64,000 nt of DNA from the NCBI RefSeq assembly GCF_020883455.1, contig NZ_CP086615.1:3774501-3838500 (forward strand). Direction: 5' to 3'. Positions 1,880 to 20,569 of the stretch are shown one piece after another; the first letter of the stretch is position 1; each line of letters starts with the position of its first letter. Position numbers and translations under genes: made by a program. The notes under the pieces were generated by a model, which saw only the letters and a list, made by a program, of their open reading frames with translations, was not told the DNA's origin and ran no database searches. The DNA is from Spiribacter halobius. Lineage in GTDB: Bacteria > Pseudomonadota > Gammaproteobacteria > Nitrococcales > Nitrococcaceae.

Positions 1880-1976
1880 GAACCAAGAACTCGTTTCACG
1901 CAAACCCGCGCTTGAGTCGTCGTGGGGCGCTCAGCGTCCTCGAGGTCGCACTCGAAGCGCTTGTTAGAGGTGATTT

Positions 1977-2654: not shown

Positions 2655-2945
2655 TTTTACTTCTAACAGTGATTAGGCAGACAGCGGATATTGATTACGA
2701 GTGCCCGGGACATATCACACCAGCAACGTTACGCAGACTAATGCGCACGCTGCTGGTTTCTTTGGGATTGCTTGGGTTGCTCACTCTAGCCTTCCTTGAT
2801 ATCAAACAAGCAGTCAGCCCCGGCTGATGGATAACGTAACCCTGCAGCGCACACAGGTCACATCCCACCCCGAAACACCGTCTAATGTCGTCTCTGGGTC
2901 GGATCGCGCCCAGAAGCGCCCGGTACGATACTCTCTGGTCCCCTA
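2655..2945. other. Intergenic stretch between divergent units
   Basis: This AT-richer stretch carries the upstream signals of the minus-strand pair and of the integrase-like gene. I see no gene or clear hairpin terminator in it. Confidence 0.4.
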
Positions 2946-3640
2946 ATGGAGACCGACGCCATGGATCATTCCAGTTGCCAGGCGACGCGGCTCCCCTGCA
3001 ACAAGGGTAGGATCTGCGGCCAGAAGCGACCAGTGAAGCGCGAGCATATCTGGGTCATACGGATCCGCCTTGAGCTCGCAGGCCGCCTACGGGACCTCGC
3101 GCTCTTCAGCCTAGGACGCGACAGCGAGCTCCGTAGCTGTGATCTAGTCCGGCTGAGGGTGCGCGACGTGATGCACGTAGGCCACGTTCTCCCCCGGGCG
3201 ATGCTAATCCAGTCCAAGACCCGCCGCCCGGTTCAGTTTGAACTCACTGAGGCAACCCGCACTGCGGTCGCGATGTGGGTGGGTACGACAGCGCTCGCTC
3301 CCAGCGGCCACCTCTTCCCAAGTCGCCTCAGCGACCCGCCGCACCTATCCACCCGACAGTACGCCCCTCTCCTGAAAGGCTGGCTACACCAGATTGCCCT
3401 GGATGCCGCAGAATACGGCACACACTCGATCCGCCGGACCAAGGCGACGATGATCTACCGGCAGACGCGCAACCCGCGCGCCGTGCCGCTACTGCTTGGC
3501 GATACCAGGCTGGAAAGCACCTCCGGTACCTCGGCGTCGAGGTTGTTGACGCCTTGCGTTTGGCCGAACAGACCAACATCCGAGTGACAGCCCGCTGGCG
3601 ACCGCCGCCACCGCGATCGCACAGAGCGGCCAGCAGCTGA
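2946..3640 (+). pseudogene. Tyrosine recombinase (integrase), frameshifted
   Basis: The first frame starts near 2946 and reads NKGRICGQKRPVKREHIWVI, a small integrase family with DLALFSLGRDSELRSCDLVR around the first catalytic Arg. It continues to HSIRRTKATMIYRQTRNPRA, the His-xx-Arg box. The frame breaks near 3520 after LLLGDTRLEST. The expected continuation VRYLGVEVVDALRLAEQTNI, with the nucleophilic Tyr, is in the next frame (stop at 3640). One missing G before TCCGGTACCTC explains it. The predicted product lacks the catalytic tyrosine. A sequencing error remains possible. Confidence 0.75.
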
Positions 3641-3660
3641 CGTTCCCTGCCCGTTTGTAG

Positions 3661-3891
3661 CTCGGAATCGGACGTGACGCGGGGACAACTTATGGCAACG
3701 CATCCACCGCCTTGTTCCGGTGCCTACAACCCACATCATGGAGGGATTTCGTTGAAAACAATGCCCAAAGTGTCTTTGATGCAAAGAACCCTGAGATCGG
3801 GTACAAGGAATCGCCAAAATTCGTACAAGTGGGAATTGCCTCCCAGGCACTGGCCCGGCTGAATCTGATATTGGGGGTAACAGATGACTAA
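3661..3891 (+). pseudogene. 3' remnant of a gene preceding the RES toxin gene
   Basis: This frame is open from 3661 to a TAA at 3889-3891 but has no convincing start (only a TTG near 3712). From about 3745 it reads like real protein: DFVENNAQSVFDAKNPEIGY, then KESPKFVQVGIASQALARLN. Its last codons overlap the ATG of the downstream gene by 8 bp (ATGACTAA), the spacing of translationally coupled genes. The GC content falls sharply near 3735, so I read it as the tail of a former partner truncated at the junction with the integrase segment. Family not recognised. Confidence 0.45.
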
Positions 3892-5332: not shown

Positions 5333-5767
5333 GTTATCGTTATCGGCCGCTGTCCCGTCCGCGCCGGAACGCGCATCGGGCTTCGGGAAGAGTAGCTACA
5401 GATCACGAAGCGGCCAATAACACTTTGGCTCCGGAATGGCCGCTTAGGGTCGAGAGCCGCCGCACGGATTCAAAGGAAACACGCTTCTCGAGATCCCGTT
5501 TCGGTATCGCTGTCCGCACTGGAATACACCCCCGGAGGGCTGATCATCGGAGCGGGATCGGGGCCCGCGCCCGCTTCCCGTACCGGGATCTCGTTCTCTG
5601 GGCTCGGGCCCAACGGCACCCGCAACACCACGCCCTTGGCACTACCAGTGGCTCAACCTGGCCATTCCCGCGCAGAGAAGTGCCAGGTTGACGGCTACAG
5701 TGTATGTGCTTGCAGCGCGCGCCAGCAGACCGGTCGTGTCAAGGCGAAGTTCGTCGTCCCTCCGATC
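5333..5767. other. Gene-free stretch downstream of the RES gene
   Basis: No frame here gives a recognisable protein. Runs such as TPGGLIIGAGSGPAPASRTG on the plus strand hint at a decayed coding remnant, but no start or family can be assigned. The GC content returns to chromosomal level. Confidence 0.35.
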
Positions 5768-7147
5768 TCAGTCACCGGCCCACGAACGCCCCGCCTGTTC
5801 ATCATCGCCAAACTCTCCGTCAGCCTCTGCCGTGTCCCGGGACTGGATCTGCGGTGGTGGCGCCACCCATGCCCGCAGCCGCTGTCCCACTTGCTCGTAG
5901 AAGTGCGGCACAGCCTCCTCGAGGCGATCAATGAACACCCGGTTGCCGGTGAACTTGCCGGCAAGGTCGAGGCTGTAGAAAACCTCGAATGCGGAGGGCG
6001 GGCTGCTTCGCTCCGGATCCTCCAGGTGCCTGGGGTCTTCGCGCAGCTCGGCGAGCGAGGCTTTGAGGTGCTGCCCGCGCCCACGACGCAGCGCCCGGAC
6101 CTGAATTCCGTCTGCCTCCGCGTCCTTTAGCTGGCGCAGCAGCCAGTTCACCCGGGCCTTGGTCGACTTTTTGTCCCGCGGGGCGTCGAGGCGCATGGTC
6201 GCGAATATCGAGCGCCTTGCGATGTCAGCGGCCACCTCGATGTCGGACGCAGCATCTGGCACATCGAAGGTGCACGTCAGGCGGTGCTCACGCACGAGCA
6301 CATCCGCGTCATCCTCGAGGCGCTTATCCGCGTTCTTGCGATGCTCGCGCGGTAGCTTAAGACGTACGCTACGGCCGACCTTGCGCGAGAGGATGAGTCC
6401 GAGATCGCGCTGCTCCTGATGCCACGCGCTCACCGTATTGCGCACCTCCTCGGCATTCTTCGAGAGGGTGACCCGATCCCGAACCTGCGTGACGAGGTCC
6501 TTCCACTCGGGGTTCATGCTGCGAAAACCGGTCACACCACTGGTGTCGTGGCGCAGGTAGCGCACCACCTCTTCGAGCAGGAAGCGCTGATCGGCGCTGC
6601 CCACAGCCTCCTCTTCGAGCAGTAGCGTCGCCTCCGTCAGCAGGTACATCCATGACCAGTGGTAGAGCTCAACGCCCTTTGCGTCGCGTTTGGAGAGCTT
6701 GACCGGGTGGTGATCTGGGCGGGCGACGAACTGGTTGGTAATGGTGATGACCGCATTGACGCCGCGAGCCTTTGCGTCGGCGACATAGCGCTTCAGCTGA
6801 TCCTCGCTGACGACGTCGTTGCCGATCTTGCCCTCGAGGAGAGCAGTCCATTCCTGGCGAGTCGTATCGAGCACCAGCAGACCATCCGGGCGATCGTTCC
6901 CGCCGCCCTTGCCCTTCTTGCGAGGATGACTGTCGTCTTCGAAGACGATCTCAGTCAGGGCGGTAAAGCGCGCGCGCTTGCCAACGCGCTGGCCAAGGGA
7001 TCGCAGGGCAGCCTCACGGAACGCCTCGACCCCACGAAACGCTGCCAACACCACCGATACGGCCCGCTCTTCTCGGCTGGTATCCGCGACCACTGGAACC
7101 AACCGAGCGTGTTCACCGCGCACGACCTTCTCAAGAATGCCCGTCAT
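5768..7147 (-). CDS. Hypothetical protein with a PD-(D/E)XK-like nuclease motif
   Basis: About 459 residues from ATG 7147 (MTGILEKVVRGEHARLVPVV), preceded by AAGGGGGATCC; an upstream in-frame ATG at 7192 lacks this site. Residues about 85-145 read NDRPDGLLVLD, then WTALLEGKIGNDVVSEDQLK. This Asp...Glu-x-Lys pattern with a following helix resembles the PD-(D/E)XK core. The C-terminal half (about 230-420) is basic and helical with no known motif. It stands alone in a cargo region that also carries PLD, RES and integrase genes. DNA cleavage or a defence role is inferred from the motif and setting only. Confidence 0.55.
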   Translation of the reverse strand: MTGILEKVVRGEHARLVPVVADTSREERAVSVVLAAFRGVEAFREAALRSLGQRVGKRARFTALTEIVFEDDSHPRKKGKGGGNDRPDGLLVLDTTRQEWTALLEGKIGNDVVSEDQLKRYVADAKARGVNAVITITNQFVARPDHHPVKLSKRDAKGVELYHWSWMYLLTEATLLLEEEAVGSADQRFLLEEVVRYLRHDTSGVTGFRSMNPEWKDLVTQVRDRVTLSKNAEEVRNTVSAWHQEQRDLGLILSRKVGRSVRLKLPREHRKNADKRLEDDADVLVREHRLTCTFDVPDAASDIEVAADIARRSIFATMRLDAPRDKKSTKARVNWLLRQLKDAEADGIQVRALRRGRGQHLKASLAELREDPRHLEDPERSSPPSAFEVFYSLDLAGKFTGNRVFIDRLEEAVPHFYEQVGQRLRAWVAPPPQIQSRDTAEADGEFGDDEQAGRSWAGD

Positions 7148-7251
7148 GGATCCCCCTTCCTGCTTATTCGACGAGGGAGCGAACGCCCACACGCCTCTAG
7201 CAAAAGCTTCCCGTGTGTCAGTGCGGCCTAGGTGGCTAGCCTGTCATGCCC

Positions 7252-8364
7252 TCATCCATCGATGCACGCGAGGCCCTCGGCTCGAATATCGGCGACCCGC
7301 GCAGCACTTAGGCCGCTTATCCGTTGAAGGGCCTCGATTTCCGCCCAGGGCCTGCCTTCCACAATCGCCCGCGCGCGGGCGGGCCCGATGTGGATGATTC
7401 CGGTGAGCGCCTCCGCGCTCGCCTCATTCAGGTCGACACACTGTCGAGCCGCCACACCAGCGTCATTGGCCGGGCACCCGACGCGGGTATCGCCGACGGT
7501 GAGATAGACCGGCAGGTGATCGCTGACACGCTCGCGTACGTAGGCGTGTTCGAGCCCAAGACAATCGGGCACGAGGAAGATCCCGCTACTGGTGACGGTG
7601 AGCTCGCTTGGCTCGAGCCAAAGGTTGTCGTACAGATTTGCGTATTCGCCGTCATTCGTGGAGAGCGTTGTCGCGCCTTCCTCGAGCAGCGGGTCGGCTA
7701 GCGCATTCAGCTCATCCCAGGAGGCATGATCCGGAGCGAGATTGAAGTCGCCCACTAAAATGAGCGGGACCTCACCCCCTTTGTCATCAAGCCAAGTCCA
7801 GTAGTTATCCAGCGTCGTGATCTCGAGTACACGCTCGCCGACCGTATCGCCGTAGACGATGTGCACGGTTGCCAGGAGCAATTCCTCACCCGTTTCCCGA
7901 TCGCGGAAGCGGGCGGCGAACGGATCCCGCGCGAACCGATCACCCGGATCCGGGTACGCACCAATCCGGCCCGCGAGCACCACCTCGCTGCTGCGCCACA
8001 CGAACGTGTAGTGCTCCTGATACGAACTTCGGCCAAAAGCCCGACTCGTGAGCGCCCGCCAGGACTCGCCGGTATTCACTTCCAGGGTGCTTAGCAGCGT
8101 GTCGACAGCATTGGGATCCATCAGTTCTTGAATCGCAATGAGGTCAAAGGCCGCGGTCACGCTGGCGACGGCCTGCATGTCCTTGCCGTTGTCCCAACCG
8201 AGGTGACGAATATTCCAAGAGGCGAGGCGCAGGTCTGCAACGGCTGGCGCTGCGAGCATAAGCAGCGCCGCCAGGAAAATGCCATGGGCCACATGTCCTT
8301 GGCGCGGGCCCAGCTTCCTTACGGCTACGGGAGGCAGGGATTGCGATCTGGCAGAGACAACCAT
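7252..8364 (-). CDS. Secreted endonuclease/exonuclease/phosphatase family protein with C-terminal helix-hairpin-helix
   Basis: 370 residues. A basic N-terminus and hydrophobic stretch GIFLAALLMLAAPAVA form a signal peptide. The EEP (DNase I-like) fold follows: LRLASWNIRHLGW (Asn), IAIQELMD (Glu), LVGDFNLAPDHASWDEL (Asp-x-Asn) and SDHLPVYL (catalytic Asp-His). The last 60 residues (CVDLNEASAEALTGIIHIGP onward) are a ComEA-like helix-hairpin-helix unit that binds DNA non-specifically. Known EEP members cut DNA or phosphodiesters. The fusion suggests an exported DNase acting on extracellular DNA. Confidence 0.82.
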   Translation of the reverse strand: MVVSARSQSLPPVAVRKLGPRQGHVAHGIFLAALLMLAAPAVADLRLASWNIRHLGWDNGKDMQAVASVTAAFDLIAIQELMDPNAVDTLLSTLEVNTGESWRALTSRAFGRSSYQEHYTFVWRSSEVVLAGRIGAYPDPGDRFARDPFAARFRDRETGEELLLATVHIVYGDTVGERVLEITTLDNYWTWLDDKGGEVPLILVGDFNLAPDHASWDELNALADPLLEEGATTLSTNDGEYANLYDNLWLEPSELTVTSSGIFLVPDCLGLEHAYVRERVSDHLPVYLTVGDTRVGCPANDAGVAARQCVDLNEASAEALTGIIHIGPARARAIVEGRPWAEIEALQRISGLSAARVADIRAEGLACIDG

Positions 8365-8537
8365 TGCCGTTCTTTCCGTGGCATCGGCAGCCGATATACT
8401 GACACCATGATGGTGGTGGAGCGACCTGCAGCGGTCTGCGATGAACCTCTCATGGAGGGTGCCTAAGACCGGCTATGCTGAGTGCTCCGGTGGCCGTAGC
8501 CACCGTCCCTAAGGCAACCGCACACGGAGGTGTTCCG

Positions 8538-8750
8538 ATGCTAATACTCAGCCGCCGCGCCGGAGAGACCATACTTATCGGCGATGACATCCGTGTCACG
8601 GTGAGTGCAATTCAGGGAGGGCAGGTGCGGGTCGGGATCGATGCACCCGCTGAAGTCAGAATAGTGCGAGGCGAGTTGGCAGACGCCGATTCGCAGCCAA
8701 AGCCCATTAATGGAGACGACGACGGGGTTGTGGAAGACCCGGATCACTAG
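8538..8750 (+). CDS. csrA: Carbon storage regulator CsrA/RsmA, accessory copy
   Basis: 70 residues starting MLILSRRAGETILIGDDIRV, with VRVGIDAPAEVRIVRGEL in the RNA-binding strand; the functionally key Arg of the VxR segment is kept. CsrA dimers bind GGA motifs in mRNA leaders and control translation and stability. The ATG at 8538 follows GGAGG at a good distance; a longer upstream frame has no support. The C-terminal tail is acidic (NGDDDGVVEDPDH). The copy sits alone in mobile DNA next to an IS66 insertion, so it is probably an accessory regulator of the element rather than the housekeeping gene. Confidence 0.9.
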   Translation: MLILSRRAGETILIGDDIRVTVSAIQGGQVRVGIDAPAEVRIVRGELADADSQPKPINGDDDGVVEDPDH

Positions 8751-8855
8751 GCCTACCCCCTTGCTCGCCCGAGCGACAGCCGCCTGAACTTCTCGGCGCA
8801 TGCCTGCCTAGCGTAAGCGTACGACGACCACCCCTTGCGCAGGCCGGCGGATGGT

Positions 8856-9104
8856 CTAACGCGGCGGGTTGATCTCGTCGGTGCGCTCGCCTTCCTCGAG
8901 CGCGAGGTGGACGGCGGCGTCGAGCCGGCGCAGCAGCGCGGCGAGGTTCTCACCCCGGCGACGCCGCAGCATGGCCAGGGCGTTGTGCTCGTCGTTGGCG
9001 ATGGCGACGACGCCGACCGGGTCGAGGTGGCCGACCGTGATCTGGCCATCCTCCTCGATCAGGGCCTCGATGTTCGGCAGTGCCGGTGGCGGGGGCTCGG
9101 TCAT
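8856..9104 (-). CDS. Small accessory protein of the IS66 element
   Basis: 82 residues (MTEPPPPALPNIEALIEEDG...), acidic at the N-terminus and helical in the middle (NALAMLRRRRGENLAALLRR). It starts 11 bp after the tnpC stop and ends just inside the left inverted repeat, so it moves with the element. I recognise no domain; its role in transposition is unknown. Confidence 0.55.
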   Translation of the reverse strand: MTEPPPPALPNIEALIEEDGQITVGHLDPVGVVAIANDEHNALAMLRRRRGENLAALLRRLDAAVHLALEEGERTDEINPPR

Positions 9105-9115
9105 GGGATCTTCGC

Positions 9116-10693
9116 TCAGGCAGCCTGACGGCGATGGTCGCCCAGCTCGGCGGCCAGGTTCCAGGGCAGCAGCGCGTCGATCTCCCGGATCGGATGCTCG
9201 GCGATGCGCTCGAGCACCGTACGCAGGTAGGCGAAGGGGTCGAGCCCATTGAGTCGGGCGCTGCCGATGAGGCTGTAGATCAGTGCGGCGCGCTCCCCGC
9301 CGTGGTCGGAGCCCATGAACAGGTAGTTCTTGCGCCCGAGGGCGACCGTGCGCAGCGCCCGCTCGGCGGCGTTGTTGTCGATCTCAAGCCGCCCGTCGCC
9401 GAGGTAGCGCGCAAGCGCCTCCCAGCGGCCAAGGGCATAGCCCGCTGCCGCGGCGAGCGCGGATTTTGCCGAGAGCGTGCGCAGGATCTCCTCGAGCCAG
9501 GTTCTGAGCCCGGCAACGAGCGGGCCGGCGCGGGCCTCGCGGGCAGCGCGGCGCACCTCGGCCGGGCGGCCACGGATCTCGGCCTCCAGCGCGTAGAGCG
9601 CGCCGATGCGCGCGAGCGCCTCGCGCGCGAGCGGCGAGTCGGTGGCCGCGGCCACGTCGTGGAACTTGCGGCGCACGTGCGCCCAGCACGCCGCCTCCTC
9701 GATGCGCCCGCTGGCGTACAGCGCCCCGAAGCCGGCATAGCCGTCGGCCTGGAGCGTGCCGCGGTAGCCGGCCAGGTGGCGCTGGGGGTGGATGCCCTTG
9801 CGGTCGGCGCTGTAGCGGAAGACCACCGCGGGGGCGGCCGCGCCGCCCCAGCCGCGCTCCTCGCGCACGTAGGTCCACAGGCGCGCGGTGCGCGTGCGCC
9901 CGCGCCCGGGATCGAGCACCGGCACCGGCGTGTCGTCGGCGTGCAGGCTCGCGCCACCGAGGACGTGGCGCTCCAGCGCCTCGCCGAGCGGGGCGAGCAG
10001 CGCGCTCGCCGCGCCCACCCAGTCGGCGAGCGTGGAGCGCTCGATGGCAACGCCCTCGCGGGCATAGATCTGCGCCTGGCGGTAGAGCGGCAGGTGATCG
10101 CAGTACTTCGCCACGAGCACGTGGGCGAGCAGCCCCGGGCCGGCGAGCCCTCGGGCGATGGGCCGCTCCGCAGCCGGCGCCTGCACCACCGCCGCGCAGG
10201 CGCGGCAGCGCTGCTTGGGGCGCACGTGGCGGATCACCCGGAAGGAGGCCGGTACGTACTCGAGCACCTCCGAGACGTCCTCACCGAAGGTGACCAGCAC
10301 CCCGCCGCAGCTCGGGCAGGCGCAGGGGCCCTCATGGCGCTGGGTCTCACGCGACAGGTGCGCCGGCAGCGCCCGCGGGGTGCGCGGCGCGCTCTGCCGT
10401 GCCGGCTTGGTGGCAGGGGGAGCCGCCACCGCTTCCCCGGCCGGCTCCCCGCCAAGCGCCTCGATGGCGAGCTCGAGCTGCGCGATCTGCGCCTGCAGCC
10501 GCTCCGAGGAGCGCCCGAACTGCATCCGGCGCAGCTTCGCGAGCTGCAGGCGCAGCCGCTCGAGCTCCTCGGCCTGGCGGCGCACCGTCGCCTGCGAGGC
10601 GGCAAGCTCCGCGCGGCTCGCGAGCAGCAGCTCGCGCAGCGCCGCGGCGTCGACGGGCAGGGCGTCAGGCGGATGGGGAGTGGTGGATTGCAC
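9116..10693 (-). CDS. tnpC: IS66 family transposase TnpC
   Basis: 525 residues, full length for the family. The N-terminal 60 residues are a leucine-rich coiled coil (LERLRLQLAKLRRMQFGRSS). Next is a zinc-finger region (CACPSCGGVL, RCRACAAVVQAP). The DDE catalytic core has LHADDTPVPVLDPGRG (first Asp), LQADGYAGFGALY (second Asp) and a C-terminal region ending with the IS66 helix ERALRTVALGRKNYLFMGSD. Catalyses strand transfer. Transcribed after tnpA and tnpB. Confidence 0.95.
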   Translation of the reverse strand: MQSTTPHPPDALPVDAAALRELLLASRAELAASQATVRRQAEELERLRLQLAKLRRMQFGRSSERLQAQIAQLELAIEALGGEPAGEAVAAPPATKPARQSAPRTPRALPAHLSRETQRHEGPCACPSCGGVLVTFGEDVSEVLEYVPASFRVIRHVRPKQRCRACAAVVQAPAAERPIARGLAGPGLLAHVLVAKYCDHLPLYRQAQIYAREGVAIERSTLADWVGAASALLAPLGEALERHVLGGASLHADDTPVPVLDPGRGRTRTARLWTYVREERGWGGAAAPAVVFRYSADRKGIHPQRHLAGYRGTLQADGYAGFGALYASGRIEEAACWAHVRRKFHDVAAATDSPLAREALARIGALYALEAEIRGRPAEVRRAAREARAGPLVAGLRTWLEEILRTLSAKSALAAAAGYALGRWEALARYLGDGRLEIDNNAAERALRTVALGRKNYLFMGSDHGGERAALIYSLIGSARLNGLDPFAYLRTVLERIAEHPIREIDALLPWNLAAELGDHRRQAA

Positions 10694-10744
10694 CGGCTAA
10701 TTATACCCGGGCAGATCGGCCAAGTCGCTCTTTTTCGGATCGAT

Positions 10745-11092
10745 TCAGGCCGCGCATTGCGGGTCGAAGGTGCGCTGCGGGAGGCGCCAGTCGATGCCCT
10801 CGAGCAGCATCGAGAGCTGTGCGGCGGTGAGGTGCACCGCCCCCTCGCGCACCTGCGGCCAGATGAACCGGCCCCGCTCGAGGCGCTTGGCATAGAGGCA
10901 CAGCCCCTGGCCGTCCCACCAGAGCACCTTGATCCGATCCCCGCGCCGGCCGCGGAAGACGAACAGCTGCCCCGAGAAGGCGTTCTTCGCCAGCGCCTGC
11001 TGCACCAGCGCCGCGAGCCCGTCGAAGCCCTTGCGCATGTCGGTCACGCCGGCCACCAGGTAGATGCGCACCCCCGAGGGCAGCGCGATCAT
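10745..11092 (-). CDS. tnpB: IS66 family accessory protein TnpB
   Basis: 115 residues with the conserved IS66 Orf2 pattern: MIALPSGVRIYLVAGVTDMR, KGFDGLAALV, LFVFRGRRGDRIKVLWWDGQ and GLCLYAKRLERGRF. It overlaps the end of tnpA by 4 bp, indicating translational coupling. TnpB is needed for efficient IS66 transposition, but its biochemical role is not established. Confidence 0.94.
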   Translation of the reverse strand: MIALPSGVRIYLVAGVTDMRKGFDGLAALVQQALAKNAFSGQLFVFRGRRGDRIKVLWWDGQGLCLYAKRLERGRFIWPQVREGAVHLTAAQLSMLLEGIDWRLPQRTFDPQCAA

Positions 11093-11481
11093 CGCCCGAG
11101 CACCTCGAGCGCGACGCGCAGGGCCGCGGCGTCCGCCGCGCCGCGCACCACCAGGCGGTGGCCGGCGGCGAGCACGATCTCCAGGCTGCCCGACGGCGCC
11201 GCGCTCTTCACCTCCGGCGGCACCGGCGGCGGCTCGGAGGCGGCCAGGCGCACCGGCAGCAGGCTCAGCGCCGAACCCTCACTCGGCGCCCCAAGTTCCC
11301 CGAGGCGGTAGAGCCGGCGCCAGCGGAAGAGCTGGTTGGCGTTGACGTCGTGGCGGCGCGCGACCACCGAGACCGAGTCCGGGCCCTCGAGGCTCTCCTC
11401 AACGAGGCGGCGCTTGTATTCAATGCTGAAGCGCCGCCGGCGCTGGCGGCTCAGCGTCTGATCCCCATCGATGGTGTCCAC
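11089..11481 (-). CDS. tnpA: IS66 family accessory protein TnpA (HTH)
   Basis: About 130 residues. After a short leader it reads RRRRFSIEYKRRLVEESLEG and VVARRHDVNANQLFRWRRLY, a transposase-8-type helix-turn-helix. The GTG at 11481 follows TTGGAGGCGA and is preferred; a GTG at 11505 in the same frame is the longer alternative. First gene of the three-gene IS66 operon. Confidence 0.88.
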   Translation of the reverse strand: MDTIDGDQTLSRQRRRRFSIEYKRRLVEESLEGPDSVSVVARRHDVNANQLFRWRRLYRLGELGAPSEGSALSLLPVRLAASEPPPVPPEVKSAAPSGSLEIVLAAGHRLVVRGAADAAALRVALEVLGR

Positions 11482-11688
11482 CTCGCCTCCAAGTGGGCAC
11501 CTCACAAGTGCCCGCCTATGCGTGAGCGCTGATCATCGGCGAGGCGACGTCACAACGAGAAGTGGGTGCTGGCCGGACGCTTACTGCCTAGCGCCCCGGT
11601 GGCGTATTTCATTCTCCCTCTTTTTGCGATAGCTTCACCGCCGCAGTAATACCTGCGAGCCAAGAGAAACTGAAACAGGAGGCATCGA

Positions 11689-12006
11689 GTGGATCTATCC
11701 AAACACAGCATCAAGGAACTTGAGCAGCTGAAGCGCGACATCGAGAAAGAGATCGGCAGGAAGCAGCAGGAAGAGAAGAAGGAAGCGCTGCGCGAGGCAA
11801 AACGCGTCGCCGAGAAGTATGGTTTCGCGCTCGACGACCTCGTCGGTAGTGCGCCGAAGGCCAAGAAGCGTGCAGGCAAGGCGCCTGCCAAGTTCCGTCA
11901 TCCGGACGATCCAACCAAGACCTGGTCCGGGCGGGGCCGCAAGCCGCAGTGGATAAAGGACTGGGAGCAAACTGGGGGCGATCTCGACAAGCTCCGTGTG
12001 GCCTGA
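11689..12006 (+). CDS. H-NS family histone-like protein
   Basis: 105 residues from a GTG start preceded by AGGAGG. The N-terminal half is a long helix for oligomerisation (IKELEQLKRDIEKEIGRKQQ). The C-terminus has the DNA-binding core TWSGRGRKPQWIKDWEQTGG, with the W-x-GRGRxP loop that enters AT-rich minor grooves. H-NS proteins silence foreign, AT-rich genes. A copy on the element could mask its cargo from the host. The IS66 insertion lies about 100 bp upstream, so its promoter may be affected. Confidence 0.92.
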   Translation: MDLSKHSIKELEQLKRDIEKEIGRKQQEEKKEALREAKRVAEKYGFALDDLVGSAPKAKKRAGKAPAKFRHPDDPTKTWSGRGRKPQWIKDWEQTGGDLDKLRVA

Positions 12007-12036
12007 CGGCTCGGCCATCTGAGGAACCGGTCGGCT

Positions 12037-12056
12037 CCCGGCGCTTGAGCGCCGGG
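12037..12056 (+). terminator. Hairpin after the hns-like gene
   Basis: CCCGGCGC, loop TTGA, GCGCCGGG, followed by TTCT. It lies 30 bp after the stop; a short T-tract makes it a plausible but weak intrinsic terminator. Confidence 0.5.
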
Positions 12057-12627
12057 TTCTAGCTCATGGTGAAGTGAGCCCCTACCGCGCTAGCCCGAAC
12101 TCTGGCATCTCCCGCTCAAGGGCAACAGGCGCAAGTACCTTCGGGTGGGGAAAGGCACATGGAATTGGCTACGGTCGACCCTTGCCGTGCCCTCGGAAAT
12201 GGGCGGAAGAACCTGTCGCAAACTTGCTTCGCTCGGAGGCTGTGAACCGCTACGTCAGCTCGCGAACGATTCGGCACCGAACTTATTCACGCCCGGCTGT
12301 ATGACTCCGATCCCGGCACCGAGCGAATAGGGTCCGGGCGCGGTTTAAAGGACTCAGCCAACGTGCTGAAGATTCCCACGCGCCCCGTTCGTAGGCCCCC
12401 CGTGATCCAGGCATTGGGTCCATGGGGGGTGCTCCTAACCAGCCGAATTCCACCTCCGGCTCAAGCGCGACTCGCTTCGACGGACAGGCAGCTGGCTCGT
12501 GGCTGGTATGCCAGGGCGCTGTACCGAAACGCGTTGTCTCCGTCGATGCACAGTGAACGCGCATCGATGGCAGGGCACGAACGATCGGTCCAAGATCCTG
12601 TGGACGCTCCCGCCTCCGGTGACAGAC
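12057..12627. other. Gene-free stretch between hns-like gene and ccdA
   Basis: Several short frames exist but none has a recognisable product or ribosome site. I see no clear repeats. It may be decayed cargo. Confidence 0.4.
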
Positions 12628-12879
12628 ATGGCTTTTGGGCATGACAGCCGACGCAGCACGAAGAAGCGCGCCGTCCACCTAAGCCTCGATAGCGCCGTGG
12701 TTGATGAGGCAAGGTCACAGGGGATTAATCTGTCGCAGGTCCTCGAGGGGCATCTGCGCGAGGCGCTGCGGGCGCACCGCGAGCAGACCTGGCGTAATGA
12801 GAACCGCGACGCGATCCGGCACTACAACGAGCGCGCGGCTGAGCGCGGCAGCTTCGGCGACCGCTTCCGCTGTTTCTGA
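12628..12879 (+). CDS. ccdA: CcdA-family antitoxin
   Basis: 83 residues: a ribbon-helix-helix N-terminus (STKKRAVHLSLDSAVVDEAR, NLSQVLEGHLREAL) and the typical C-terminal toxin-neutralising tail WRNENRDAIRHYNERAAERG. CcdA binds its own operator and inhibits the gyrase poison CcdB. The downstream toxin reading frame is broken, so this antitoxin is orphaned here, although it could still act on another CcdB in the cell. Confidence 0.88.
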   Translation: MAFGHDSRRSTKKRAVHLSLDSAVVDEARSQGINLSQVLEGHLREALRAHREQTWRNENRDAIRHYNERAAERGSFGDRFRCF

Positions 12880-12991
12880 TACGCCGGTTCGATGGACTGA
12901 CCAACACCGATGTCCAGAGCGCACAGTGGCCCCACGCCTGATTGCGCTCCAGCATGACCTCCTCGACAATCTCAGTGCCGTCGTGCCTCCC
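12876..12991 (+). pseudogene. ccdB: Truncated, frameshifted CcdB toxin remnant
   Basis: Starting at the ccdA stop, one frame reads IRRFDGLTNTDVQSAQW and the next continues APRLIALQHDLLDNLSAVVP. Together they match the first 40 or so residues of CcdB. One lost G near 12929 explains the shift. The remaining 60 residues, including the gyrase-poisoning C-terminus, are absent, and the XRE gene begins at 13009. The toxin cannot be functional. Confidence 0.75.
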
Positions 12992-13008
12992 CACTCAGGG
13001 ACCTACCC

Positions 13009-13392
13009 ATGGACTGCGACGCCTACGAACTGCTGGATCAGCTTGCCAAGCGCCCCGCCACTCGGGAGGCCATGCGCCGTTCGGCTCTTGCCCTCGAGCT
13101 AGGACGGCTCGCCTTTGACATGCGCTCAGCGGCCGGCCTTAGCCAGGCGCAGCTTGCCAAGCGCCTGGGCACAAGCCGCACCGTGATCTCGCGACTTGAG
13201 GGGGGCAACGCCGGGCGCGTCCCCGGGCTCGATCAGATCGACAAAATTGCCGAGGCCTGTGGCTTCGAGGTCCGCCTCGAGGCCACCCGGATGCGTCCCG
13301 AGGCGGGTGCAGAAACGGCGGAAGTGGCCAGATTTCGCTTCTCTGTCACCAGCGCTGCCCCCTCCACGGCCGAGATCCCCCCTCGGCGGTAG
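13009..13392 (+). CDS. XRE-family HTH regulator (antitoxin-like)
   Basis: 127 residues. Residues 35-90 form a Cro/C1-type helix-turn-helix (MRSAAGLSQAQLAKRLGTSR, TVISRLEGGNAGRV, IDKIAEACGFEV), the arrangement seen in HigA-type antitoxins. No HigB/RelE-like toxin is directly adjacent. It lies 17 bp after the ccdB remnant. Confidence 0.75.
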   Translation: MDCDAYELLDQLAKRPATREAMRRSALALELGRLAFDMRSAAGLSQAQLAKRLGTSRTVISRLEGGNAGRVPGLDQIDKIAEACGFEVRLEATRMRPEAGAETAEVARFRFSVTSAAPSTAEIPPRR

Positions 13393-13605
13393 CGCCAATG
13401 GCAACCGCATTGGCGCTGCTTGCCTGGCGCCTCGGGTTGAGCGCTACGCGTCTTGCCGTGCACGTGGCACTGCGCGCCTGCGCGAGCGGCGAAGGATCTT
13501 AGTAGGCCGCGCCTGGACGACCCCAAGGGGCCGTCCGGCATCGCCCGCGACAGGGCCGGATCAGTGGCACGCATTCGCCTGCTCGGTCGAGCCCCATATC
13601 CTTGG
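13393..13605. other. Short intergenic stretch between convergent XRE and TnsF-like genes
   Basis: No gene seen. The minus-strand frame here does not continue the recombinase domain of the TnsF-like protein in any recognisable way. Confidence 0.35.
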
Positions 13606-15168
13606 TCACCCGGCATGCTGGCGTACGTAGTACTTCACGGCATGCGTGGACAGGGGCTGAACACCATTACGCCCAGGAAACAGCATCTCACCACGTGCCT
13701 CATCCAGGACTGACTCCCGAAATAGCCGCGCGACCTTCTCCTCGAGCCGAATATCCGACTCCCCAGGCCACAGAACGACTTTGTGACCCTGGTGGGTGAC
13801 CTCAGACCGGGTGAGCGCGAGCACGCGGGTTAGCGGCACTCCATAGAGGCGTGCAAGCAGTTCCGCCACCAGGGCGCGGCGCTTGGCGGCGGTGCAGGGC
13901 CGCTCCAGCGCCGTGGTGATCTGGCGGACCGTATGCTCAACGCGCGATGCATACCGGTTCTTCCTGGGTGGACGCCCCGGGGGCAACGCGATTGAGAGGC
14001 CGTGCTGCACCTTCAGAAAACGCACAAACCGCGTGAGGCTCGCCCGGTGGCCCGGATGGCGTCGAAGAAATCGCGTCAGGTGCTTCGCGTCGAGCTCGGT
14101 GGGCCGTTCAACCTGGGCGTGCTCTAGCAGCTTCGCTGCAGCGTTGACATAGACGCGTATGGATTTCTCGCGAAGCTTCGCCTGGGTATCCCGCGATAGC
14201 CAGTCAGCGTATTCGTGAAGCGTCCCGACCCAGACCCGATCGCCGAGGCGCTGGAGAGCCTGCAGTCGCCTGTCTCGCTCGATGAGCTCCGCGAGGTCAT
14301 CGTTGCTCCACGGCAGTCGAAGGCGGCGCACAAGGTAGGAAACCGGGAGGTAGTGCCGCCGAAGCCCCTCGGCTGTGAAAATGCGGTAGAGCGACTCCTG
14401 CGAGACCTCCTTCCAGTCGCTCAAGTGCCGATCGATCTCGGCGAAGAACTGCGCATAGTGGTCAAGTCGGCCCACCAGGGCCCCATCGGAGACCTCGAGC
14501 ACCGGCGAGCGACAGAAGTCCACGAATAGCCGGCGCACCCAGTACTGCTCGATGAGCTCTGCGTTCAAAGACGTGCGCCGCTCGGCACGCTCGCGCAGGG
14601 CGCAGGGGTCACAGAGGCGCCCCCCGCCCCCTGGGACCGGGACTCCACAACGAGGGCAGGCGTGGGATACCGGCCGTTCTGCGCCGCAGTCCCCACAAAG
14701 CGGGTGTCCCTGCGCGTCACGGCGCAGCACCTTACGGTATCGGCGGCAGACGCGGCACGTCTCCCGGGTAGGGTCGCAGCTCGAGCAGACTGCAGCGCCA
14801 TCGCGGATCCCGGGTAGCTCGCGAACACTTCGGCCGCAATGGCCGCATGTCTTCAGCTTTCGGTAGTACCGCGCGCAGGAGGGGCAGACGGCGCCGGCCT
14901 CGATAACGCGCCCTGCGACCGGCACCGGGCGCTCGCAGCGAACACACCGTCGGCTATTCCGCCAGCACTCGCCGCAAAGCCCATGGCCACGGTTGCGATG
15001 CACGCGAGTAGTGCGCCCGCACTGCTCGCAGCTCACGCGGATGAAAAGGCGCGCGTAGCAACTCTGGCAGTACCGGTTACCGCGGTAGCGCCGGTGCGCC
15101 TTGGCCATCGCGCGACCACATTCATCGCAACGGCGGCTGGCCTCTGCGGCGTGGTCCGATTGGCTCAT
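13606..15168 (-). CDS. tnsF: TnsF-like target selector: Cys-rich zinc-ribbon array plus inactive tyrosine-recombinase domain
   Basis: 520 residues. The first 190 hold a run of CxxC pairs (CDECGR, CQSCYA, CEQCGR, CGECWR, CVRCER, CPSCAR, CGHCGR, CSSCDP, CRVCRR, CGDCGA, CPRCG, CDPCAL), probably consecutive zinc ribbons. Residues about 310-400 resemble a recombinase SAM-like core-binding domain. From about 420 a tyrosine-recombinase catalytic fold begins (LLARLYGVPLTRVLALTRSE), but the usual G-x-R Arg is replaced (GVPLTR) and the protein ends at LSTHAVKYYVRQHAG, before the HxxR box and Tyr. Known TnsF has an inactivated recombinase domain and directs Tn6022-like elements to comM. It is the last gene of the tns cassette. 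Confidence 0.8.
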   Translation of the reverse strand: MSQSDHAAEASRRCDECGRAMAKAHRRYRGNRYCQSCYARLFIRVSCEQCGRTTRVHRNRGHGLCGECWRNSRRCVRCERPVPVAGRVIEAGAVCPSCARYYRKLKTCGHCGRSVRELPGIRDGAAVCSSCDPTRETCRVCRRYRKVLRRDAQGHPLCGDCGAERPVSHACPRCGVPVPGGGGRLCDPCALRERAERRTSLNAELIEQYWVRRLFVDFCRSPVLEVSDGALVGRLDHYAQFFAEIDRHLSDWKEVSQESLYRIFTAEGLRRHYLPVSYLVRRLRLPWSNDDLAELIERDRRLQALQRLGDRVWVGTLHEYADWLSRDTQAKLREKSIRVYVNAAAKLLEHAQVERPTELDAKHLTRFLRRHPGHRASLTRFVRFLKVQHGLSIALPPGRPPRKNRYASRVEHTVRQITTALERPCTAAKRRALVAELLARLYGVPLTRVLALTRSEVTHQGHKVVLWPGESDIRLEEKVARLFRESVLDEARGEMLFPGRNGVQPLSTHAVKYYVRQHAG

Positions 15169-15198
15169 TGCCCACTTCCCTCTGGGGCAGTTGCTCGG

Positions 15199-16275
15199 CT
15201 AGGTCAACGACTTTAGCAGCGCACGGGCCCGGCGCTCCCGGTAGGCCTCGAGCTTCTCACGCTTGCGTCGCTGCCAGGCGGCAGCCGGGCGGGCCGAGCG
15301 CGTGACCCGAGTCCGCTGCTGTCCCGATGGGAGGCGGGCGATCTCGGCGGCGACGACCCCGTCGAGGTGAAGTCTTGCGAAGACACGCTGGGTCATACGG
15401 GACTCCTGGGCGCCTACTCGGAACGCCTCCGGCCAGTTCGACAGCCAGGCCGCCACGGTCTCGATCAAGAGCGCGCGTTGCTCGACTCTCCGATGTTCCA
15501 GGCGTCGCCGCTCCAGCGATCCCTCAGGCAAACCGGGAAGACCGAGACTTGCCCTGAGCCGCGCATGGATGCGCGGGTCGCCGACAGCCGAGAATAAGGA
15601 GCGATAGGTCGCGGCCGAGCCCTGGGGGTACGCGTCGACATCTTGCCGCGCCTCACTCGCCCGCACACCAGCAGCCGAGAGCAGCAGTCGCTGCAGGGCC
15701 CAGGCGCTCGCTGATGGCTGCGCCGCGGTCTCCGCGGGCGCAGACAGAAGCCCATGGCAGCGCTCACAGGCCTCGAGCCGTGGAATCAGGTTGCGATGCG
15801 GCGCGGGTGGGGCTCCGCAGTGGGGACAGGCGTCGAGCAGAACGCGTCGGTGGCGCTCACACCCGAAGACGAACGCAAGGCGCCAGCGCTTGATAAAGCC
15901 GCTGCCTTCGGCGAGGCAGTCGGGGCAGAATTGCTGGCCATGGTGCTGCCTCGCCCGGTGATAGATGCCGAGCGAGAGCACGAAGGGAGTAACGCCCGGG
16001 ATGCTCGCGTTCTTGACCAGCGCGGCCTGTTCCGGAGCCAGGGTTAGGTCGGTGACCTCGGGCAACGAGAGGCCCGACGTCTTGCACGCGGCCGCGAGCA
16101 CGGCGAGGGGTACGCCCCGGTCAATGTCGCGTGTCCAGAGCTCCATCCTCGGCCAGTAGAGCCGGTGGAACCGATAGGGCTGACTCCCGTGCGCGAACGC
16201 AACGCGACAGAGATAGGAGCTGAGAAGCTCCTCGGGGCGTGGCCGCAGCCGGAACGCCCATCGGGCGGGGATCAC
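15199..16275 (-). CDS. tniQ: TniQ/TnsD-family protein
   Basis: 358 residues. It opens with the TniQ signature RPRPEELLSSYLCRVAFAHG. A zinc-binding block follows (FCPDCLAEG, FGCERHRRVLLDACPHCGAP, CERCHG). The C-terminal part is a helical, arginine-rich region. TniQ proteins connect the target-recognition factor to TnsC. The 358-residue length suits a short TniQ working with a separate selector. Its ATG overlaps the tnsC stop (ATGA). Confidence 0.88.
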   Translation of the reverse strand: MIPARWAFRLRPRPEELLSSYLCRVAFAHGSQPYRFHRLYWPRMELWTRDIDRGVPLAVLAAACKTSGLSLPEVTDLTLAPEQAALVKNASIPGVTPFVLSLGIYHRARQHHGQQFCPDCLAEGSGFIKRWRLAFVFGCERHRRVLLDACPHCGAPPAPHRNLIPRLEACERCHGLLSAPAETAAQPSASAWALQRLLLSAAGVRASEARQDVDAYPQGSAATYRSLFSAVGDPRIHARLRASLGLPGLPEGSLERRRLEHRRVEQRALLIETVAAWLSNWPEAFRVGAQESRMTQRVFARLHLDGVVAAEIARLPSGQQRTRVTRSARPAAAWQRRKREKLEAYRERRARALLKSLT

Positions 16276-17162
16276 AGCGCCCGCGCCTGCTCACCGTAGT
16301 TCTTCAGGCTCACCCACTCGATCTCGTCGAGCATCTGCGGCTCGATACGCTCCTTGCCCTCGCGCAGCGCATGCACGGCCGCGGCCTTCAGCACGCCGCT
16401 CACACCCCCGATCAGCCCCTCACTCATGTTGAACACCTTGATCGCCGTTTCCCGGTTGGTGAGGTTGGACGGCTCGGCAAGCGGCAGAAGACGCTCGAAG
16501 CTCGCGAGCAGGCGCAGGAACTCCCGGTCCAGCTTCCAGCGGGCAAGCCCGAACGGCGCGAAGCGGCTGGAGATCTGCGGGTCGGTGTGCAGCGCGCGGA
16601 TCGCATCCCGCGTGCCCACCGCCACGATCGGGAGCTTAAGCGCGTTGCTCAGGTTCTTCAGTACGCCGAGGAAGTGGCGCTGGGCTCGAGCATGTCCGTA
16701 GAGGATGTTGTGGATCTCATCGATGACGAGCATGCGGCACTTGACGTACTCGAGCACCGAGAGCGCCTGCTCCTTTTTGCGCTGTACCGGGTCAGTGTCA
16801 CGGTGCGCGATCATGAGCTGCAGGAGCAGCTCGGACCAGAACCGGGACTCGTTCGGCTCCGAGGGCATGTTCATCACCACGACCGGCACTTCCGGGTGGC
16901 CGTTGTCGCGACAGTAGGATGGGTACAGGCTCTCGAAGTGGGAGATGATGGTGCTCTTCCCGTTGCCGCTTTCCCCGACGAGCAACATGTTCTGCATGCG
17001 CAGCGTCCTGGGGTACATCAACAGGTCGGAGAGCGCGTCGATCGCCTGCTGCGCCCGCGAGTATCCGATCCACCGATCCCGGCGAAGCTCGTGAATCCGC
17101 GCAGACAGCGGAAGGTCAACGGTGTCCCTGATTTCCCACTCAAGGTGCTCGAGGCTCTTCAT
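16272..17162 (-). CDS. tnsC: TnsC/TniB AAA+ ATPase
   Basis: 296 residues. Walker A at VGESGNGKSTIISHF, Walker B at MLVIDEIHNIL, sensor region PIVAVGTRDAI. TnsC-family ATPases polymerise on target DNA and activate the transposase. The length and the IGYSRAQQAIDALSDLLMYP N-terminus fit the TniB-like branch. Start and stop overlap neighbours by 4 bp on both sides, so tnsB-tnsC-tniQ is tightly coupled. Confidence 0.92.
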   Translation of the reverse strand: MKSLEHLEWEIRDTVDLPLSARIHELRRDRWIGYSRAQQAIDALSDLLMYPRTLRMQNMLLVGESGNGKSTIISHFESLYPSYCRDNGHPEVPVVVMNMPSEPNESRFWSELLLQLMIAHRDTDPVQRKKEQALSVLEYVKCRMLVIDEIHNILYGHARAQRHFLGVLKNLSNALKLPIVAVGTRDAIRALHTDPQISSRFAPFGLARWKLDREFLRLLASFERLLPLAEPSNLTNRETAIKVFNMSEGLIGGVSGVLKAAAVHALREGKERIEPQMLDEIEWVSLKNYGEQARAL

Positions 17163-19117
17163 CGCTCCACCCCCAGATCATCGAAGGCCGTGACCGGTTC
17201 GGAGAACAGGTCATCCTCGGCGAGGTCGGTATTCACCGCGGCGTTGGTGTCGTTTTCCACCGGCAGCCTTTTGCCGGATGGCTCGGCAGGACCCGCTGGA
17301 GACTTGCGCTTCCCCTTGCCCGAGCCCCTGGAAGCCCCTCCCGTGGAGGCCCTGACGCGGTGAGCCTGCCGGCGGGCCTTCTTGGACTTGTGCTTGGCCT
17401 CCTCAACGCGCTCCCGCATGCGTTGGACGGCCTCGAAGATGGCGTCCTCGTCCACATGCTTGCGGCCCTCCTCGGCAAGACGGCGCTGGGCGGCACGCAC
17501 CTCCCAGAGGCTCACCGCCGGGTGGGCGACGTTGCGGTAGGGGATCGTGTAGTACTCGTTCGCCTCGGGGTCGAAGAAGTACACCCGGCTGATGTCGCGC
17601 GGGTCCCGGCGAATGATGAACTGCCGTTTGGCCTTGGGATGCGAGGGATCCATCGCGTTGATCCACGGGGTCAGCACCTCGTGGAAGTAGAAGATCTTGT
17701 CGATCTGGATCCCGTAGGTCTGAACGGTGCGCATCACGTAAGGCAGGAAGTCGAGCCGAAGCCGTGCCGGGTCCGCGGGAATGTCGGGAACACCAATCCC
17801 GGGCTGCTCGTCGTTGCCAAGCACGCCGATCTCCCACTGGCGCTTCGGTGGCAGGCCGAGCCCTGAGTGCTCGCGCTGGTGGTAGACATTGACGATGTAG
17901 TCGACGAGCTGCTGCTCGAACTCCCGAAGCGTCAGTGCGGCCTTCCCTTCGGAGTCGTAGCCGGAACGCGCGGCGGGCGAGGCGAACGTGGTGCCTGGGA
18001 GCTTGTGAATCTGCTTGGCGTTGGTGCCCATCAACCGCTCGATATGCCCCCCGTAGTGAGGAAGCTTCACCGGCCGCAGCTGGAGCTCGATGGCGTACTG
18101 CTCGCAAGCCCGCTGCAGCATGGCCCCTCGGAACTCCTTCGCGTTATCCGCATGGACCACCCGCATCTTCCCCCAGACCGGCCACTCGCCCGGCACATCA
18201 AGGTCCGCGAGGTAGCCTTCCTTTGGGAGCATTCCGTTGGCCAGGCACATGCCTACAGAAACGGCGCTTGGCGGATCCATCGAAATGTAGATCCCGACGA
18301 CCATTCGGCTGTACACGTCGATCGCAAGCGTGACCCAGGGACGGCCCATGGGCAGGCGCGTTTCTTCCTCGACGACGATGATGTCAGCCTCGGTGTGGTC
18401 GATCTGCACGATCGAAAGAGGGAAGTCCGCTCCGGGAAACCCACCTCGAATTGGCTGAAACATATTCCGCGCTTCATCGCGACGTCCCCGCCGACGCAGA
18501 GAAACCGCGCGCGGCAACTCTCGAATACGGTTCCTGACCGTATTCGGATGAGGCGGCTTGAGGCCGGCCTTTTTGCATTCCTCGACGACACGAGCTGCCA
18601 CATCCCCGGGAGAGGGCCGCTGATTGCTCAAGTAATACTGATTGATTACGGACTCAGTGATCGCCTCAGCCTTTTTCGAGAGGCGCCTCCCACCCCGCTT
18701 CGGACCACGCCGGCCCGGAATCAAGCAGGAGAGATGGCGTGAGTCCTGGAAGCGGCGGAGCCACTCATAGAGTGTTGCCACATGAACGCCAGCTTCCTTC
18801 GCCTTCGCCTCTGCGGCCTCACGAGTGCGCATTGGATTATCGAGAAGCGGCTTGATGGCGTCGAACCGCCGCTGCGCCTCGGCCCAGTCCTCCTCAGAGA
18901 TCTCAGCGATGTCCTTGCCAGCCGCCACGGCCTCTCCGGCCTCTTCGGCCGGGTGCACCGACGTCAACTGCGCGATGCGCAGGCGCTCCATAGCCAGCGT
19001 TTCCAGGTTCTGGGCCAGGATCGCGTCGAGGCCCAGAACATGGGTGACCTTATAGCGTCGCTCGCCTAGAACAACGACTGATCCAGGTCGAACTGATAGG
19101 AATGTGGATCGTTCCAT
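17159..19117 (-). CDS. tnsB: TnsB-family DDE transposase
   Basis: 652 residues from ATG 19117 (MERSTFLSVRPGSVVVLGER), preceded by GGGGAGGGATTCGT; the open frame extends upstream but overlaps tnsA. N-terminal HTH domains (residues about 100-190) are followed by an rve-type core: FPLSIVQIDHTEADIIVVEE (first Asp), MRVVHADNAKEFRG (second Asp) and GGHIERLMGTNAKQ (Glu). The C-terminus is Lys/Ser-rich and ends in acidic residues, like the TnsC-binding tail of TnsB. TnsB binds the ends and joins the 3' strands to the target. Confidence 0.93.
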   Translation of the reverse strand: MERSTFLSVRPGSVVVLGERRYKVTHVLGLDAILAQNLETLAMERLRIAQLTSVHPAEEAGEAVAAGKDIAEISEEDWAEAQRRFDAIKPLLDNPMRTREAAEAKAKEAGVHVATLYEWLRRFQDSRHLSCLIPGRRGPKRGGRRLSKKAEAITESVINQYYLSNQRPSPGDVAARVVEECKKAGLKPPHPNTVRNRIRELPRAVSLRRRGRRDEARNMFQPIRGGFPGADFPLSIVQIDHTEADIIVVEEETRLPMGRPWVTLAIDVYSRMVVGIYISMDPPSAVSVGMCLANGMLPKEGYLADLDVPGEWPVWGKMRVVHADNAKEFRGAMLQRACEQYAIELQLRPVKLPHYGGHIERLMGTNAKQIHKLPGTTFASPAARSGYDSEGKAALTLREFEQQLVDYIVNVYHQREHSGLGLPPKRQWEIGVLGNDEQPGIGVPDIPADPARLRLDFLPYVMRTVQTYGIQIDKIFYFHEVLTPWINAMDPSHPKAKRQFIIRRDPRDISRVYFFDPEANEYYTIPYRNVAHPAVSLWEVRAAQRRLAEEGRKHVDEDAIFEAVQRMRERVEEAKHKSKKARRQAHRVRASTGGASRGSGKGKRKSPAGPAEPSGKRLPVENDTNAAVNTDLAEDDLFSEPVTAFDDLGVER

Positions 19118-19815
19118 ACGAATCCCTCCCCGGCTTGTATCCAGATGGGTGTGTTCATTGTCAGCGGCTGTGTGAGATCGGCATTCACTCGGTTGATGGC
19201 CACCAATCGCCACAGGCTCGGAATTGCCTTCATCCGATTCGTCTTGTCGTAAAAGCATGCCGCCAACAATGCGGCCGGCGTCGATTCGCCGAGCACCACG
19301 AGCGTGCTAACCAACTTTTCTTCCATCGCGCGGTCTTCTGGACGATGGATATAGCCGCGGAGGAACTTGGCATTGCCTAGATACCCACTCCCCCTTATCT
19401 CAACTTCCGTGAGGATCGAGAACGTCATACCGTTCTTCTTTGCGTATTGCCTCGCCGCCTTAAAGGCGGGCTTGCGGTCCTTCCACTGTGCCCAGAGGTT
19501 TTCCCGGTACTTGATCTCGAAGAGTCCTGCGGGGGCATCCAGGTACCGAACGAGAAAGTCGGGCGTGTAGTGGCGGAGTCTCCCGTCCGTGCCCTGGAAG
19601 TGGATGCGCAGCGGTTGTTCGATCACCTCCGTGACGGTCGGATCGAAGTCCACGATGTTGAGGAAGTCGCACTCAAGCGAGGACTCGAACCGAACGGACC
19701 TACCACGTACGTGCGCCTGTCCAGTGACGCTGCGGCGGCTCCGTCCGATGCGACGCACCGGCCCCTCTAAATCCAGTCGGAGGATCTTCTGTTTTTGCTT
19801 AGGCCAGTCGCGCAT
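19066..19815 (-). CDS. tnsA: TnsA endonuclease
   Basis: About 249 residues from ATG 19815 (MRDWPKQKQKILRLDLEGPV); a longer in-frame ATG at 19881 would run into the transposon end. The TnsA nuclease motifs are FESSLECDFLNIVDFDPTV (Glu and Asp), HYTPDFLVRYLD (Asp) and GLFEIKYRENLW (Glu-x-Lys). TnsA cleaves the 5' strands so that transposition is cut-and-paste. It is the gene nearest the right end, and its 3' end overlaps the tnsB start by about 50 bp. Confidence 0.92.
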   Translation of the reverse strand: MRDWPKQKQKILRLDLEGPVRRIGRSRRSVTGQAHVRGRSVRFESSLECDFLNIVDFDPTVTEVIEQPLRIHFQGTDGRLRHYTPDFLVRYLDAPAGLFEIKYRENLWAQWKDRKPAFKAARQYAKKNGMTFSILTEVEIRGSGYLGNAKFLRGYIHRPEDRAMEEKLVSTLVVLGESTPAALLAACFYDKTNRMKAIPSLWRLVAINRVNADLTQPLTMNTPIWIQAGEGFVWNDPHSYQFDLDQSLF

Positions 19816-19907
19816 ACCGTTGTCCTCTAGTCGCGGGATCACTTGTGCGAAGCAATGTAACCCCTTGTTTAATTCTACCATGATCGCCTCATCTACTGTA
19901 TTTTACA
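19816..19907. repeat. Transposon right end with possible TnsB-binding repeats
   Basis: Read inward from 19907 the end starts TGTAAAATACAG. Two similar 18-bp units lie on the minus strand at 19882-19899 (ACAGTAGATGAGGCGATC) and 19829-19846 (ACAAGTGATCCCGCGACT), sharing ACAxxxGATxxxGCGA-like spacing. Repeated TnsB sites are expected at Tn7-type ends, but only this end is visible and the match is loose. Confidence 0.5.
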
Positions 19908-20569
19908 GCGGCGGGCGCCCGCGCCCCGGCGAGATCTCCCTCGCCCACAACGGCGTGCTCTTCCTCGACGAGCTGCCGGAGTTCAGCCGCGCGGCCCTGG
20001 AGACGCTGCGCGAGCCGCTGGAGACCGGCGCGGTGACCATCTCCCGCGCCGCCGCCAAGCTGACCTTCCCGGCCCGCTTCCAGCTCATCGCCGCCATGAA
20101 CCCCTGCCCCTGCGGCCACCTGGGCGACCCGATCGAGCCCTGTCGCTGCAGCCCGGATCAGGTCAACCGCTACCGCGGACGGCTCAGCGGCCCGCTCCTG
20201 GACCGGGTCGACCTGCAGGTGGACGTCCCGCGGCTCACCGCCCTGGAGCTCGCCGGGTCCGATCCCGGCGAGCCCTCGGCCGCCGTCCGCGCACGCGTGA
20301 TCGAGGCCCGCGAGCGCCAGCTGCGACGGGACGGCGTGCCCGCCGCCCGGCTCACGCCCGCCGCCCTGGCGCGCAGCTGCCAGCCCGATACGGCCGCCCG
20401 CCGCCTGCTCACCGAGGCCGCGGAGCGCCTGCGCCTGTCCGCACGGGCGTGGGATCGCTGTCTGCGCATCGCCCGCACCATCGCCGATCTGGCCGGCGCC
20501 GACCAACCGGGAGAGGCCCACGTGGCCGAGGCGGTCAGCTACCGCGAGCGCCTGAGCGCGGGCGGCTGA
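19908..20569 (+). pseudogene. comM: comM (YifB, Mg-chelatase-like AAA ATPase) 3' fragment
   Basis: From the junction the frame reads GGRPRPGEISLAHNGVLFLD, then ELPEFSRAALETLREPLETG, FQLIAAMNPCPCGHLG and the C-terminal helical region to the TGA at 20567-20569. This is the second half of ComM: Walker B, the AMNPCPCG motif and lid. The N-terminal domain and Walker A are missing, cut off by the transposon. ComM is a hexameric helicase promoting branch migration in natural transformation. Loss should lower integration of divergent DNA. The cut is within a conserved glycine stretch. Confidence 0.93.

Follow-up and report, generated by a model that had tools for sequence, protein, structure and literature searches.

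The window analysed here, a stretch of 64,000 nucleotides from Spiribacter halobius, contains a gene whose product joins a long series of CxxC pairs to a recombinase-like part that stops short of an active site, and the question raised by this locus is whether such a protein is an oddity or a known kind of target selector. The first-pass annotation took it for a TnsF selector, with a dead and truncated recombinase fold, of a comM-directed Tn7-like element, and this reading is borne out both by the protein families encoded in the operon and by an insertion in comM. The gene is the last in an operon with the order tnsA-tnsB-tnsC-tniQ-tnsF, all on the minus strand (Table 1), and hence follows tniQ in a tnsABC-tniQ operon, as tnsF does. 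Its neighbours are Tn7 genes, and no YRec or HTH match was found in the stretch around it. We are highly confident that it encodes TnsF, which selects the attachment site for a Tn6022-like Tn7 transposon, and that the recombinase-like tail is dead. TnsF is thus a known kind of protein and the features initially flagged as odd are the family's own; what is new is a longer remnant of the catalytic domain.

Table 1. Features of the tnsF locus and the interrupted comM gene (positions in the window)
Feature	Position	Strand	Evidence
Right-hand 19.9 kb of the 137,419-bp element; last base 19907 (...TTTTACA)	1..19907		
tnsF, 520 aa target selector	13606..15168	-	ORF and homolog alignment
Partial catalytic domain of TnsF (residues 428-518; match to positions 26-125 of the Tsy catalytic-domain profile, which has 184)	13615..13887	-	21.1 bits
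Two core-binding-like helical domains of TnsF, residues ~205-400 (approximate; limits inferred from published TnsF architecture)	13969..14556	-	Phage_int_SAM_4 below cut-off
Zinc-ribbon array of TnsF, 12 CxxC pairs, residues 14-189	14602..15129	-	Pfam DZR_2 above cut-off, DZR just below; 24 invariant Cys
tniQ, longest ORF, 358 aa	15199..16275	-	Pfam TniQ 3.2e-20
tnsC, TniB family	16272..17162	-	Pfam TniB 2.2e-68
tnsB, longest ORF; true start probably further in	17159..19258	-	Pfam Mu-transpos_C 1.2e-11
tnsA	19066..19881	-	Pfam Tn7_TnsA-like_N 2.5e-16
5-bp target-site duplication GCGGC; other copy at left end	19908..19912	+	
3' part of the interrupted gene comM, with the codon for the Walker B Gly at 19952	19908..20569	+	

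The element interrupts comM, a natural-transformation gene. Of the comM matches in the 4.17-Mb genome only two are strong; these are the two halves of the gene, which share a strand, whereas two others are weak. The 5' half is separated from the 3' part by 137.4 kb, GCGGC is found at both junctions, and removal in silico of the element together with one GCGGC yields an open comM. The first base of the element is at G000:C1:3656989 (TGACAATT...), outside the window, and the span from there to window position 19907 is 137,419 bp. The same junction base was found in seven of seven comM-flanked loci, that is, loci where the 3' part of comM adjoins tnsA (the window, L020, L021, L050, L054, L062 and L063), and this base precedes the Walker B glycine codon by 44 bp. 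Immediately past the junction stands GCGGC in six of these loci and GAGGC in one; the left-hand copy of the duplication was read for the window element and L020. Position in comM near Walker B and a 5-bp duplication are as in Tn6022-like elements, and according to the passages of Faure et al. (PMC10293859) on targeting, TnsF depends on a 10-bp stretch within the Walker B codons. One of the seven loci encodes a stop-terminated fusion of TniQ with the first part of the TnsF zinc array (L021:7722-9791), which adjoins comM at the same comM base and resembles a fusion case described in part of the same paper (PMC10293859).

The zinc-ribbon array, estimated in the first-pass annotation at about twelve CxxC pairs and considered unusually long, contains exactly 12, starting at residues 14, 34, 47, 65, 75, 95, 108, 128, 138, 158, 171 and 186. 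Since all 24 Cys are invariant across an alignment of 12 homologous sequences, the array is not a chance pattern. Its length is the family norm, with 11-13 CxxC pairs in 21 of the 21 rows compared, full-length Tsy relatives included. According to the sections of Faure et al. (2023) on its architecture, TnsF has a zinc-finger region in its first 199 aa and a recombinase-like part without the catalytic chamber (PMC10293859). Many zinc fingers and a lost chamber, the two features singled out as unusual, are therefore the published description of the family, as far as these sections go, the absence of an active site being the defining mark of Tn7-type TnsF.

Beyond the array, the protein has a tyrosine-recombinase-like core with an incomplete catalytic domain, the first part of which matches a Tsy profile while the remainder is absent. 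A Phage_int_SAM_4 match at residues 328-369 falls below the cut-off (E 0.021), and the core-binding-like region is helical in a low-confidence AlphaFold2 model built on a two-row alignment (pLDDT 53.9), which was kept out of fold searches. Profile comparison of TnsF with tyrosine recombinases gave a collinear but weak match (probability 3.9%, E 0.011), and among solved structures there was no TnsF match by sequence and no recombinase match with either profile. The extent of the tail was measured against a profile of 184 positions built from the catalytic domains of four Tsy-type proteins. The window tail scored 21.1 bits over positions 26-125 and the tail of a TnsF from an Acidovorax plasmid 25.5 bits, compared with 3.4 bits for the best of 1000 shuffles of the window tail (784 of which gave any score). 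The best of the remaining Tn7-type tails, from Halomonas, reached 4.8 bits and the others listed at most 3.4, the maximum also for Acinetobacter TnsF; no score was obtained for the G655 tail, and G638, a fragment, lacks this part. The catalytic domain is kept through the FPGR..LST.AV.Y segment in the window and Acidovorax proteins, whereas other Tn7-type tails stop earlier, and these two proteins look like less eroded forms of a domesticated recombinase.

The protein ends in KYYVRQHAG, ahead of the HxxR-to-Tyr region of its full-length Tsy relatives, as first noted, and neither the HxxR region nor the nucleophilic Tyr of an active tyrosine recombinase occurs in the protein or in the DNA just downstream of it. 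The first catalytic Arg is also missing, as the motif GVPLTR at residue 443 had suggested: Pro445 occupies this position when aligned by eye with element-encoded recombinases (LGLR in A6). However, this loss is not diagnostic, since the corresponding residues, again by eye, are Lys, Gln, Gln and Thr in the four Tsy-type homologs and Arg in Acidovorax TnsF. These Tsy-type proteins (L012, L056, L057 and L064) appear by eye to lack the canonical first Arg and, in at least three of the four, the Arg of HxxR, but to keep a Tyr, while the neighbouring YRec has the canonical set; the YRec may supply part of their chemistry. The suggestion that the window protein is an informative variant of TnsF holds, but on other grounds than those given for it, as its catalytic remnant is longer, not shorter, than that of Acinetobacter (Tn6022-type) TnsF. 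This longer remnant is a modest new variant. The passages of PMC10293859 on pCAT, truncation and helix K make no mention of a long-tailed form, which may well be among the 1,099 homologs of Faure et al., and literature on TnsF, Tn6022 and comM yielded no further characterisation of TnsF.

Homologs were collected from plasmids (67 records with a match), from the class (369 genomes; five matches, among them that of the window itself and at least two chance ones), from the phylum (398 genomes; 18 matches, many weak), from one order (348 genomes; five matches) and from one scan of genome contigs (two loci, one weak). Among 59 near relatives the only TnsF match was the window's own copy, and four scans of viral contigs, one with the window TnsF and three with other TnsFs, found no relatives. 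The comparison set comprises 21 rows: the window, four Tsy-type proteins and 16 further rows in which no recombinase adjoins the gene. Left out of the tree were the TniQ-TnsF zinc-region fusion (L021), a broken frame (L023), two fragments (L055 and L065), the chance matches L008 and L009, and other weak matches of the phylum search. tnsB, tnsC and tniQ stand alongside tnsF in 14 of the 16 other rows, one of the 14 being a fragment, so that 13 other tree rows have a complete TnsF frame in an operon with TnsB, TnsC and TniQ; none of these genes is found in the stretch of the Halomonas row, and for G655 the contig runs out close to tnsF. Identity between the window TnsF and other TnsFs is 22-31% in the 12-row alignment and at most 34% elsewhere. 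Homologs with the full catalytic set in the same position would have argued against a dead selector, but all Tn7-type rows stop short of both the HxxR and the Tyr region; full-length homologs do occur, though within Tsy elements, where they neighbour a tyrosine recombinase.

The tail ends directly ahead of the active-site region of its full-length relatives, as it would in an active recombinase gene whose C-terminus had only recently been removed by a local frameshift or stop. The missing part, approximately 59 profile positions, left no match in three frames over 1 kb downstream of the tnsF stop (the positive control scored 154 bits), which refutes a local frameshift at 13606; only an assembly error deleting the entire remnant would revive this explanation, to which we give practically no credence. 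Moreover, Acidovorax TnsF ends at the same place and the region is absent from every Tn7-type homolog with a complete frame.

Slightly less improbable, though still very unlikely, is a selector re-aimed away from comM, with the insertion seen today dating from earlier or owed to a different selector. Family homologs do occur on plasmids, where the target is presumably not comM, but the window element sits at the comM base common to all seven loci and no second tnsF was found in the genome. That tnsF is decaying and has ceased to function, in a 137-kb island that is itself stranded, is likewise unlikely, if less so: the element is very large, carries an IS66-type insertion and has a left end without clear repeats common to the right end (none at 18 bp with up to three mismatches). 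Against decay, the five tns genes are all open, 24 of 24 Cys are kept, GC3 is even along the whole tnsF frame (0.72-0.83) and both copies of the duplication are intact. A dead-tailed comM selector remains our reading, and the window TnsF is probably functional.

The trees bear on when the tail was shortened. In a tree limited to the zinc and core regions, the four Tsy-type rows group on one side (91/94); the window is placed, with poor support (51/39), beside the root of the Tn7-type side. Without three doubtful rows, the window again lies outside both short-tailed clades, each supported at 99/99, while a tree of TnsB, TnsC and TniQ places it beside the Xanthomonas-type clade (91/88). In topology tests, one clade uniting the short-tailed TnsFs was not rejected (p-AU 0.184), and neither was one uniting the two long-tailed proteins (p-AU 0.455); several branches are long. 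A long tail in the common ancestor of Tn7-type TnsF is the plainest reading, since a domain once truncated is not readily restored; shortening would then have come later, perhaps in two events. Tentatively, and with a little less than even confidence, we suggest that the window TnsF is a surviving early stage of domestication, in which the HxxR-to-Tyr part was cut in one piece first and the rest was pared later, probably twice independently, with the TniQ-docking surface kept.

How such a protein might work at the window comM can be extrapolated from published work on AjTn6022, whose TnsF, in the passages of Faure et al. describing these experiments, is needed for transposition, binds TniQ and binds comM DNA (PMC10293859). 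By analogy, the zinc array and core-binding-like domains would bind comM DNA in the region of the Walker B codons, and the partial catalytic domain, putatively the rest of a Tsy-like tyrosine recombinase catalytic domain after loss from the HxxR region to the Tyr, would dock on the C-terminal part of TniQ. TniQ would recruit TnsC, TnsAB would then insert the element, and TnsF would perform no recombinase chemistry itself. Near its C-terminus the TniQ encoded in the window carries a basic stretch, which seems, as an impression from its sequence, to fit the published TnsF contact. TnsF shows a recombinase turned into a homing device for transposons that disable comM, and a form with a longer catalytic remnant offers a construct for asking which part of the enzyme TniQ docking needs and which was lost first.

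The element itself shows the cargo capacity of a comM-directed transposon: at 137.4 kb, with most of its cargo outside the window, it is close to the 140 kb of the longest Tn7-like element in the set of Benler et al., as given in the portion of that paper on element size (PMC8649781). It contains no second set of tns genes. PF18623 found no tnsE in the genome, nor in two TnsF-carrying Acinetobacter records, so the model may be blind. An IS66-type transposase (DDE_Tnp_IS66, 9119-10693) lies just beyond tnsF within 9116-11505, with two smaller frames upstream of it that look by eye like accessory genes, and between tnsF and this IS (12499-13392) lie small genes whose products resemble, by eye, a CcdA-type antitoxin and, from a Pfam HTH_31 match, an Xre-type HTH protein. 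The gene at 3884-5332 encodes a RES-domain protein that also matches, weakly, a HEPN/RES N-terminal domain, and is possible toxin-like or defence cargo. Other cargo with defence-model matches comprises a SIR2-domain protein near the element's left end (L014:3063-5447), a pair with weak MBL-like and E1-E2 matches (L014:17138-19997), a PDC-S37-like protein of 1992 aa (L015:1692-7667) and a strong GajA (Gabija) match (L019:10390-12114).

Compared with known systems, the window protein shares with TnsF of Tn6022, formerly orf3/tniE, the N-terminal zinc array, the recombinase-like core without a catalytic chamber, the gene position after tniQ and the comM insertion, but has 520 aa against a published 498 aa (Faure et al., 2023; PMC10293859, sections on TnsF). 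Identity is also low, at 22-31% measured on aligned homologs, AjTnsF itself being outside the alignment, and the window remnant matches approximately 100 profile positions, unlike the low-scoring Acinetobacter tails. The TnsF-like protein of Tsy elements, which according to the same sections keeps an active domain (PMC10293859), likewise has a zinc array and core, and the window tail matches the first two thirds of its catalytic domain; however, it continues through the HxxR region to the Tyr and lies beside a YRec, mostly also an HTH protein, rather than Tn7 genes. Nearest by identity (33-34%), and also in TnsB, TnsC and TniQ, are the Xanthomonas/Lysobacter-type proteins (L011, L050 and L062), of which L050 and L062 have the same comM site, but these have lost the FPGR..LST segment from their tails. 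Acidovorax TnsF (L010) differs in being on a plasmid, in its 30% identity and, by eye, in having an Arg at the first catalytic position, yet its tail is of equal extent and ends at the same place as that of the window protein.
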